DNA of 64,000 nucleotides from Synechocystis sp. PCC 7338 (GTDB taxonomy: Bacteria; Cyanobacteriota; Cyanobacteriia; Cyanobacteriales; Microcystaceae): positions 744,001 through 808,000 of the forward strand of contig NZ_CP054306.1 in the NCBI RefSeq assembly GCF_018282115.1, read 5' to 3'. This document shows, in pieces, positions 12,564 to 16,346 of the stretch. Made by a program: the position numbers and the translations under genes. Position 1 is the stretch's first letter. Every line of letters starts with the position of its first letter. The notes beneath the pieces were generated by a model that did no database searches, was not told the origin of the DNA, and saw only the letters and a program-made list of their open reading frames with translations.

Positions 12564-12822
12564 ACCTTGTTAGGTTATTGGTGACTCCCATGATAGTCAC
12601 AGTCCTCCTCATATCACAAGCATTAATCGGCCTTTATATTTCCAATTCAATTACGGAATAGTCAAATTGAACCTTAGTTTTTAAGCTAAGTTCGGATATC
12701 ACTACTATACAAGTAACACACGACTCCAGTTTTTGACGTTATCATTACTAAGACGCAATCGGTAGGGTATCTATCCTTGCCTAGACGCTATATGTAGAAA
12801 TTGATTGAGAAACGACTGTCAT

Positions 12823-13851
12823 ATGAATCTGACTTGTGATCCTGCTTCTGAAATAAAAACATTCAAAATCCTATCAATAGATGGAGGAGGTATTAAAGGG
12901 CTATTCTCAGCTAGGATTATTGAGCATTTCGAGCAAAAATTTAATTGCAATATTGCTGATTACTTTGATCTAATCTGCGGTACCTCAACTGGCGGCTTAA
13001 TTGCTTTGGGACTCTCGCTAAATATTCCGGTTGGCTTGATTAGCAACCTATATTACAAAAGAGGAAAGAAAATATTTCCTCAAAGTCTTGGCTTACTTCG
13101 GTCTTTAATACAGCTTGTTTTTGGCAGCAAATATGACAACAAAGAGCTAAGGCAGGCATTAGAAGAAATCTTTGGCGATAAAACACTTTCAGATTCAAAA
13201 GCCTTGCTCTGTATCCCTGCATTTTCCTTAACTGATGGCAGGCCATTCATTTTCAAATACGATCACGCAGAAGGTGATCTCGTTCGTGACAACAAAACCA
13301 AATATATTGACATTGCGCTTGCAACAAGTGCGGCTCCTACATACTTACCAATCATTACGATAGATACCTATGACAACAAGCAGTTTGTGGATGGCGGAAT
13401 ATATGCCAATAATCCTACTCTTGTTGGAGTTATAGAAGCGCTCCGCTACTTTGTTGGTAAGAACAAAAAATTTCAGAGGTTACAAGTATTGTCAATTAGC
13501 TCTCTTGAAACTAATCCTGGTCGAAGATTCATTACTAAGCATAATCGATCTGTAGTTGACTGGATGTGTAGTAAAGATTTGATTGCTACTTTTTTTGAAG
13601 GCCAAGCTTACCAAACACAGTATTTTGTAGATACATTAGCCCGATACTGTGATTCACCATTTGATTATGTTCGTATTCCAAGTGCCGATCTATCCCCTGC
13701 GCAAGCTCGAATCATTAACTTAGATAATACTTCTCGTGAGGCATTAGACATCATTTCGCAGAAAGGAAAAGATCAAGCTCTCTTCTGGGGTAGGAAGGAT
13801 GAGGTTGTTCAGTTCTTTGAAACTCGTAAACAGTACATTACCAAGTATTAG
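12823..13851 (+). CDS. capV: Patatin-like phospholipase, CBASS effector (CapV-like)
   Basis: A protein of 342 residues of the patatin family. It has the oxyanion loop GGGIKG at residues 21-26, the nucleophile Ser55 in GTSTGG and the catalytic Asp190 in VDGGIYANNPT, so the Ser-Asp dyad is intact. CapV-type effectors are phospholipases switched on by cyclic dinucleotides that destroy the cell membrane upon phage infection. The ATG at 12823 is followed immediately by the domain; a TTG at 12805 is possible. Only one base separates its stop from the start of the CD-NTase gene, which strongly supports a shared operon. The region has no HIP1 site and is AT-richer than its surroundings, suggesting horizontal transfer. 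Confidence 0.85.
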   Translation: MNLTCDPASEIKTFKILSIDGGGIKGLFSARIIEHFEQKFNCNIADYFDLICGTSTGGLIALGLSLNIPVGLISNLYYKRGKKIFPQSLGLLRSLIQLVFGSKYDNKELRQALEEIFGDKTLSDSKALLCIPAFSLTDGRPFIFKYDHAEGDLVRDNKTKYIDIALATSAAPTYLPIITIDTYDNKQFVDGGIYANNPTLVGVIEALRYFVGKNKKFQRLQVLSISSLETNPGRRFITKHNRSVVDWMCSKDLIATFFEGQAYQTQYFVDTLARYCDSPFDYVRIPSADLSPAQARIINLDNTSREALDIISQKGKDQALFWGRKDEVVQFFETRKQYITKY

Positions 13852-13852
13852 T

Positions 13853-15231
13853 ATGGCTAACTGTCATCAGCTTTTCCAAGATTTCAACGAATCAATTGCT
13901 TTAGATTCGGAACACAAAAAATCTTTGCGCCAGTCCCGTGATGCTGTCCGCAACAAGATAAAAGCATACTTCAAAAACAAAAATAACGGACTTACTCCAA
14001 AATTTCATGGGCAAGGTTCATTTATGATGCATACCATCATTGAACCCCTTGATGGAGAGTATGATATTGATGATGGGATCTATTTCCAAGTAGAAAAAGA
14101 ACCATCAGTAACTGTTCATACTTTTCATCGATGGATATGTGAAGCAGTAGATGGTCATACTGCGGAAAAACCTGTTGACAAGCAAACATGCGTAAGACTA
14201 ATCTACACTAAAAAATATCACCTTGATCTTCCTGTCTACTACATTCTTGAAGGCGCATCTCCGTACTTAGCGCATAAAGGAAAGGGATGGATAACAAGCG
14301 ATCCGAGAGAGTTTATTCGTTGGTTTAATCAGAAGGCAGATTCAGATGGTCAATTAAAAAGGATAGTGCGCTATCTAAAGGCATGGAGTGATTACAGAAA
14401 AGGGGAGTTGCCAAGCGGTCTCATCTTTTCGATTTTAGCAGCGAATAACATCGCACATGATGAAAGAGATGATGTGGCATTCTATCAAACTCTACGCAAT
14501 ATTAAATATAGTTTGAACTTAAACTTTGCGTGTTATCGTCCAACAACACCTACCCATGAAAACTTACTAGAAGACTATAGTAAAACAAATAAAGCATACT
14601 TCATGAGTCAACTGAGTAATTTTGTGGCTTCGGCAGAAGAAGCCTTGGATGAAGATACAAATGAAGAGGATGCTAGCAAGTGTTGGCGATATCACTTTGG
14701 TAAAGAGAGATTTCCCCTCGGCGTTGCTAAGCAAACAAAAAACATTTATTTTAGTGAATCTGTTTTCAATCGCGATTATGTTGACAGTAGTGTAAGCCTT
14801 GGCTCATATGACAACACTGAAGAATTTATTGAGGATCAATATCCTATTCATTTACAGTACTACTTAAGAATTAATTGCAGGGTTCATCAGAATGGATGGA
14901 GAACTATCAGAATGGATGGAGAACTAGGTTGTTGCATGAATTGATTGCAAGAAACCTTCTTGTGCCAACTCAGAAGAAGCTAGAGTTTTTTATATCTGAT
15001 TGCAATGTCCCCAAGCCATATACTGTAAAATGGAAAATCCGAAACGTAGGTGATGAGGCAATTCGAAGAAATTGCATTCGGGGAAAAATTGTTGAGGATA
15101 CGGGAAAGCAAAGGAAAGAGGAAACTAGCGATTTCCACGGCCCACACTATGTAGAATGCTATGTGGTCAAAAATGGTATTTGTGTTGCACGTGCAAGAAT
15201 TGATGTTGCCATAAAAGACGAGGCGTGGTAG
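13853..15231 (+). pseudogene. CD-NTase (cGAS/DncV-like nucleotidyltransferase), frameshifted by a 20-bp tandem duplication
   Basis: The product should be a CD-NTase that makes a cyclic nucleotide to activate the adjacent phospholipase. The nucleotidyltransferase core is visible: Gly-Ser at residues 55-56 (HGQGSFMMHT), Asp71 and Asp73 in YDIDDGIYF, and a third Asp125 in YHLDLPVYY. From residue 345 the frame is broken. The 20-mer at 14886-14905 is repeated exactly at 14906-14925, and the shifted frame ends at 14944 after 363 residues. Without one copy, the gene reads through to 15231 as a 452-residue protein whose C-terminal part (ELIARNLLVPTQKKLEFF onward) looks like the sensor-like domain common in such enzymes. 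The core may still fold; the C-terminal domain is lost as sequenced. Confidence 0.85.
14886..14925 (+). repeat. Perfect 20-bp tandem duplication inside the CD-NTase gene
   Basis: Two adjacent identical copies of ATCAGAATGGATGGAGAACT lie at 14886-14905 and 14906-14925. Twenty is not a multiple of three, so the second copy shifts the frame. Loss of either copy by slippage would restore the full reading frame. Confidence 0.97.
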
Positions 15232-15363
15232 ATGTTTGAAACAATTCATCGCAGCCTAGCAACGCCCATGCACGCCGACCACTGAAGTGTGATCAGTTGT
15301 GATGCAAAGGTTATCTGGGGCGGGTGATGAGCAAGGGTAATCAGCCGGTGGAATTGTAATTTG

Positions 15364-15404
15364 CCCCCTAAATTCCCTCAACTTGGGGGATCCGGGGGGT
15401 TTTT
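15364..15404 (-). repeat. G/C-run inverted repeat, likely dispersed element and terminator
   Basis: CCCCC at 15364-15368 can pair with GGGGG at 15385-15389; a further GGGGGG (15394-15399) and a T run follow. On either strand this resembles the C-run/G-run hairpins at 20317, 28420 and 49773. It lies just after the stop of the minus-strand epimerase gene and could terminate it or mark the right edge of the CBASS-like insertion. Confidence 0.5.
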
Positions 15405-15413
15405 AAACACTTT

Positions 15414-16346
15414 CTACACGTTGGAATAAACGCTATTCCTTAGGATGGTGTAACCCTTAATTAACTCTTGAATACCCCGTCCCAAAGACCAGTCAGGAGT
15501 AAAGCCAGTGCTCAAAATTCTTTGGTTAGAAACAATATAATCCCGCTTATCCGGATCCTCCCCGATGGGCGCTTCTAGATAAACAAAATTAGGCAGATAT
15601 TTGCGAATTTCTGCACAAAGCTCCAGTTTAGATAAATTGGCATCTTCCAAACCAACGTTATAGGGCTTACCCTTCATGGATTCAAAATTTTCCAAGCCAT
15701 GGAGAAATACCTTAGCCACATCCCGGATATGAATATAATTGCGTTTGAAATGGCCTTCAAAAATAACCACCGCCCGATCATAAAAAGCGCGGTAAACAAA
15801 ATCATTCACCAATAAATCTACCCGCATCCGGGGAGCCATACCAAATACTGTCGCCAGGCGGAAAGTCATGCTGTTATCGCGGGCTAACACCGCTTTTTCT
15901 GCTTCCACCTTAGTTACTCCATAGAGGGAAATGGGTCGCAGGGGACTTTCTTCGGTACAAAATTTACCCTTTTCCCCAATGCCATAGCCACTATTGGTAA
16001 CTGGCATCAAAATCCGCTGTTGGGGGCTGGCTAGTTGACAGATCATTTCCACCGCCGTCTGGTTGGTTGTTTTAGTGCCAATTTGATCGCGACTGCACAG
16101 GGGAGCTCCCACTAGGGCCGCCAGAGGAATAATCACATCGGCGGTTTTTAGTTGTTCTTTAATCAGGTCTTCCTTGCGGCAATCCCCCCGGATAACGCTA
16201 AAAGTTTCATACTGACAGCATTCCGCCAAGCTATTTTGCTGGAACATGAAGTTGTCTATCACCGTTACCTCATAACCCGCCGCCAACAAAGTGGGGGTTA
16301 GGACAGAACCAATGTAGCCACCGCCACCGGTAATCAAAATTTTCAT
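15414..16346 (-). CDS. NAD-dependent epimerase/dehydratase
   Basis: A protein of 310 residues of the extended short-chain dehydrogenase family. It has the Rossmann motif TGGGGYIGS at the N-terminus and the active-site pair in LYGVTKVEAEK (YxxxK), with an upstream Ser/Thr in NSGYG. It probably modifies a nucleotide sugar. I chose the ATG at 16346, which has a GGAGG Shine-Dalgarno six bases upstream, over the GTG at 16352. It lies downstream of an ABC polysaccharide exporter on the same strand, so a role in supplying or modifying a surface glycan is likely. Confidence 0.85.
   Translation of the reverse strand: MKILITGGGGYIGSVLTPTLLAAGYEVTVIDNFMFQQNSLAECCQYETFSVIRGDCRKEDLIKEQLKTADVIIPLAALVGAPLCSRDQIGTKTTNQTAVEMICQLASPQQRILMPVTNSGYGIGEKGKFCTEESPLRPISLYGVTKVEAEKAVLARDNSMTFRLATVFGMAPRMRVDLLVNDFVYRAFYDRAVVIFEGHFKRNYIHIRDVAKVFLHGLENFESMKGKPYNVGLEDANLSKLELCAEIRKYLPNFVYLEAPIGEDPDKRDYIVSNQRILSTGFTPDWSLGRGIQELIKGYTILRNSVYSNV

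Follow-up and report, generated by a model that had tools for sequence, protein, structure and literature searches.

Predicted loss of the AGS_C domain from the cyclase of a type I CBASS operon by a 20-bp tandem duplication in Synechocystis sp. PCC 7338

The marine cyanobacterium Synechocystis sp. PCC 7338 has a CD-NTase gene that lies next to a phospholipase effector gene and is interrupted by an exact 20-bp tandem duplication, which raises the question of whether the duplication is a reversible switch of a CBASS defence system, an ordinary loss, a change that leaves a working cyclase, or an error of assembly. We analyzed this locus within a 64,000-bp stretch of the genome (here referred to as the window; G000:C1:744001-808000). 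The complete genome consists of a 3.70-Mb chromosome and three plasmids (81.33, 45.22, and 1.56 kb) (PMC8155712). Judged by its plasmids, PCC 7339 is the sequenced strain most similar to PCC 7338 (97.8 to 99.3% across aligned stretches).

The perfect 20-mer ATCAGAATGGATGGAGAACT occurs on the forward strand at positions 14886 to 14905 and again, directly abutting, at positions 14906 to 14925; the next base (A) carries the repeat to 14926, giving an array of 41 bp. The chance expectation of a 20-bp perfect tandem copy in 64 kb is about 64,000 × 4^-20, and the window has no other perfect tandem duplication of at least 12 bp. A census of 1.66 Mb of the same genome, taken as stretches and with one PEPE-repeat gene left out, yielded only four perfect arrays whose repeat unit was 18 bp or longer, including the one described here. 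Elsewhere in the genome, a perfect 20-bp unit is present in three copies (L071:15895-15954; G000:C1:275895-275954), apparently in an intergenic region upstream of a transposase-like ORF; this array is a candidate for another site of copy-number variation. A perfect 37-bp tandem duplication (L123:13239-13313; G000:C1:3113239-3113313) lies just upstream of a phosphoglucosamine-mutase-like gene.

The cyclase ORF begins at position 13853 and reaches a stop at 14944 (363 amino acids [aa]), while the single-unit version remains open to 15231 (452 aa). The original prediction, which described two identical, adjacent 20-mers that shift the frame of a CD-NTase gene and a continuous 452-residue protein upon deletion of one copy, was thus correct on both points, and the relatives described below are likewise full length. 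Its placement of the frame error at codon 345 was not, because the first copy (codons 345 to 351) is translated in frame and the wrong residues start at codon 352. The encoded protein consists of native residues 1 to 351, followed by an out-of-frame tail at residues 352 to 363 (IRMDGELGCCMN); the second copy is the one that shifts the frame. The rest of the CD-NTase coding sequence (14926 to 15231, forward strand), which contains most of the C-terminal AGS_C domain, is out of frame and still open. This part is accessible from an in-frame TTG at 14875 (118 aa) or an ATG at 14896 (111 aa). The ATG is in frame with the AGS_C half thanks to the duplication and leads to a stop after three codons in the one-copy sequence. 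The cyclase locus is single copy in the genome.

Profile searches and gene context identified the operon. The upstream gene, capV (12823 to 13851, forward strand; 342 aa), encodes a patatin-like phospholipase effector with GTSTG and DGG motifs. It matched Pfam PF01734 (100 bits), the PADLOC effector profile PDLC00758 (366 bits), and NCBIfam NF041079 (CBASS_lipase; 334 bits; cut-off, 200), and it aligned over its full length to seven relatives (74 to 79% identity), in agreement with the expectation that the effector gene is intact. It stops 1 bp short of the cyclase start. The cyclase (13853 to 14944, forward strand), which is CdnB/DncV-like and has a complete catalytic core, matched NF041078 (cGAS) with 261 bits (cut-off, 150), Pfam PF21654 and PF18144, and PADLOC PDLC00774 with 428 bits across residues 1 to 297. 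Its residues G55-S56, D71, D73, and D125 were invariant among 16 sequences. The gene had been proposed to be a CBASS CD-NTase, and the above-cut-off cGAS-family match, the invariant catalytic residues, and the adjacent CapV gene all support that identity. The AGS_C profile was split by the duplication, with profile positions 2 to 33 before it and positions 26 to 129 after it; the latter part corresponds to the match of the ORF at 14875 to 15231 to AGS_C (PF18134; 136 bits).

A cGAS/DncV-like CD-NTase with its catalytic residues and an adjacent Cap effector gene are the sequence hallmarks of a CBASS operon, which would be expected to make a cyclic nucleotide upon phage infection and to confer defence. 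Because capV and the cyclase gene are alone in the region from 12570 to 15374, with no Cap2 (E1/E2), Cap3 (JAB), HORMA/TRIP13, or type IV genes, the operon belongs to type I and not to type II. From these sequence features, it is classified as a type I CBASS consisting of a CapV phospholipase and a CdnB-type CD-NTase, which is predicted to synthesize cGAMP and whose C terminus bears an AGS_C domain. No SMODS-family gene other than the cyclase at 13853 was found in the genome, which leaves the strain without a backup cyclase.

The two CBASS genes are the only genes of an island of approximately 2.8 kb (12570 to 15374), with a G+C content of 38% compared with 48.6% for the window; the gene that follows the island is a convergent sugar-epimerase-like gene at 15414. 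Homology to another Synechocystis genome (G004), which was 91% on the left flank and 94% on the right, ends at 12569 and restarts at 15375, and 62 bp are present there instead of the island. In a further Synechocystis genome (G003), 93 bp separate the matches to the two flanks. None of the four other Synechocystis genomes searched had a match to the CBASS DNA, and the CBASS proteins had no match in the three Synechocystis genomes listed by a protein search. Given the low G+C content and the absence from the other Synechocystis genomes searched, the island was probably acquired horizontally in the PCC 7338 lineage; loss from the other Synechocystis genomes is an alternative history.

The comparison with relatives, which had been called for among Synechocystis genomes, was made with more distant cyanobacteria. 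A scan of genome contigs yielded 21 loci with encoded relatives. Seven cyanobacterial relatives have AGS_C and belong to type I CBASS, namely, six from the contig scan (L032 to L037; Microcoleus, Argonema, Calothrix, Tychonema, Pseudanabaena, and Anabaena, respectively) and L003 (G370); L004 and L037 are one Anabaena contig. These seven share with PCC 7338 both genes, the gene order, and AGS_C (cyclase, 59 to 62% identity; phospholipase, 74 to 79%). Their cyclases are continuous (418 to 451 aa), whereas that of PCC 7338 is cut at codon 352. All seven aligned without gaps through the repeat site and carry one unit's length there, with no second copy or repeat expansion (0 of 7). Since the seven relatives carry one unit without a gap, this alignment identifies the two-copy allele as the derived state. 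Read in the one-unit frame, PCC 7338 residues 352 to 448 are 55 to 59% identical to the relatives. A candidate second disabling change, concerning a segment of approximately 31 residues that is missing in L003 and L037, was rejected as a variable linker, which has other forms in L032, L033, and L036. The viral contigs searched had no encoded relative, and all cyclases detected on plasmids were more distant (best, 61%, over the core only).

Structure prediction by AlphaFold2 for the 363-aa cyclase was confident for residues 1 to 293, and residues 294 to 363 were disordered. The best Foldseek match was Bacteroides fragilis CdnB (7ljo; TM score by target, 0.89 to 0.90; 38% identity), and the catalytic-core fold is common to this protein, V. 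cholerae DncV (4txy and others), and the PCC 7338 cyclase. A difference is that the solved 7ljo chain spans a core of roughly 290 residues and has no AGS_C domain. In a model of an intact relative (L034), AGS_C was beta-rich and of low confidence, with the first of its strands lying before the break; on this low-confidence model, the duplication costs AGS_C five of six predicted strands. That low-confidence part of the model yielded no fold assignment for AGS_C, and no solved chain matched the domain by sequence. Taken together, the alignments and models indicate that the encoded protein loses AGS_C and retains the whole catalytic core.

The same cyclase family also occurs in type II CBASS, in which AGS_C is absent. 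In Phormidesmis (L038), Coleofasciculus (L042), and two Calothrix loci (L043 and L044), capV lies upstream as in PCC 7338, and the cyclase core is 58 to 66% identical to that of PCC 7338. These four cyclases have 323 to 324 aa, end with ...GFA, and have no AGS_C. Downstream of them lie Cap2- and Cap3-like genes, which were assigned by position, size, and visible motifs and not by a profile search. The C-terminal glycine or alanine is conserved in Cap2-linked cyclases and not in those of operons without Cap2 (PMC10097602). No Cap2 or Cap3 gene was found downstream of the cyclase in the seven AGS_C loci, five of which are fully informative (the flanks of L032 and L033 extend 0.5 to 0.7 kb). AGS_C and the Cap2-Cap3 pair therefore look mutually exclusive in this cyclase subfamily (four versus seven loci), and this sequence pattern suggests that AGS_C may be an alternative activation or restraint module in place of Cap2/Cap3.

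Shortened cyclases were also seen at other loci. In Prochloron didemni (L039:6001-6920), a stop codon is located where AGS_C begins, with a short recognizable remnant behind it (FIKDYHQVNIQHK); from its sequence, this is an independent truncation before AGS_C. In two Hormoscilla loci (L040 and L041), the cyclase stops at 293 aa without AGS_C, and capV and the cyclase gene are both open; capV compared between two Hormoscilla had a pN of 0.023 and a pS of 0.019. In Hormoscilla SP12CHS1 (L045:5084-6863), both genes are frame disrupted. In another cyanobacterium (L012:1447-1884; G400), AGS_C is a separate ORF of 145 aa, with no recognizable cyclase in the fetched flank.

The duplication had been thought to be recent. 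Perfect copies and the open frame behind them (102 codons) fit this and make a recent origin plausible. Deviations at otherwise invariant positions were present at 7 of 45 sites in AGS_C and at 12 of 149 sites in the core (Fisher P = 0.16); measured against the relatives' pattern, the P value was 0.045. These values are a weak hint that selection on AGS_C may be relaxed, and the lack of a clear relaxation counts against a simple loss.

We consider it likely that the duplication is an ordinary, recent, loss-type mutation of a probably horizontally acquired CBASS that impairs phage-triggered signaling, with no evolved switch. The 20-bp copy probably arose through replication slippage or template switching at about 1 bp of microhomology. 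As AGS_C is the presumed sensing or activating module of the cyclase, its loss would uncouple the enzyme from phage sensing, and phage-triggered signaling would most likely be lost or impaired. To judge from the gene sequence, the most likely outcome is a loss of regulated defence in PCC 7338; the sequence and the structural model are also compatible with an active core without its sensor, which is possible. The original prediction had called the gene switched off, which goes further than the data do, as the catalytic core is whole, AGS_C alone is lost, and some relatives of the cyclase by nature stop at about residue 324 and have no AGS_C. Its proposal of a one-way loss in a laboratory strain would fit PCC 7338, a culture-collection strain, whether the loss came before or after isolation.

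The complete core counts against a simple loss, because activity could persist. A truncated cyclase that signals at a basal or altered level, as part of a differently regulated CBASS that has been kept, is nevertheless unlikely in our view. The confident fold of the core and the natural absence of AGS_C from the four cyclases of 323 to 324 aa would permit such an enzyme, but those AGS_C-less relatives own Cap2 and Cap3, which the PCC 7338 operon does not have. The 293-aa cores that Prochloron and Hormoscilla encode next to an open capV would be closer parallels, but they look decayed, given the AGS_C remnant in Prochloron, the frame disruption in Hormoscilla SP12CHS1, and the Hormoscilla capV pN/pS values. 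In addition, a cost is to be expected if signaling is constitutive while the phospholipase is intact. The open, conserved frame after the duplication would also fit a functional split gene, in which the 363-aa N-terminal part and a separately translated C-terminal part (from ATG 14896 or TTG 14875) associate into a working cyclase. The duplication itself places ATG 14896 in the C-terminal frame (most of AGS_C), the overlap of the two frames would allow coupled translation, and the separate 145-aa AGS_C ORF in the other cyanobacterium speaks for this model. However, the break lies within AGS_C after its first strand and not in the linker, and none of the seven relatives has the same arrangement; we regard a split gene as improbable.

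A reversible switch, the other possibility raised in the original prediction, is highly improbable on the present evidence. Slippage is able to remove one of two exact tandem copies, and such a deletion could in principle restore the 452-aa frame, so that copy gain and loss might turn the cyclase off and on as a form of bet-hedging. Against this, the site has neither a second copy nor a repeat expansion in any of the seven relatives, two copies of a 20-mer are atypical of a contingency repeat, and among the papers listed by a literature search, no title or abstract reports a phase-variable CBASS. Cyanobacterial polyploidy would also slow the segregation of alleles. The narrower proposal of a low-frequency switch of the AGS_C sensor, through which a few cells per population would keep an armed suicide system, appears just as remote. 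Equally little credence can be given to an assembly or consensus error that conceals an intact, one-copy gene. The single-end, 50-bp MiSeq reads used in the assembly barely cover the 41-bp array, but the assembly (reads in PRJNA629670) also drew on PacBio RS II long reads and was built with HGAP and polished with Pilon (PMC8155712), and a clean, perfect 20-bp duplication is atypical of long-read consensus errors.

A loss-type mutation is thus the reading that we favor. The disruption is an ordinary pseudogene-type event in a CBASS of an already known type, and 152 pseudogenes are annotated in the PCC 7338 genome (PMC8155712). If it is a simple loss, PCC 7338 is probably compromised for CBASS defence, and the gene deserves annotation as disrupted. 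The duplication also provides a moderately useful natural allele for probing the role of AGS_C, i.e., one operon with and without the domain. Beyond this strain, the pattern of AGS_C versus Cap2/Cap3 suggests an alternative way of activating or restraining the cyclase, which is directly testable.
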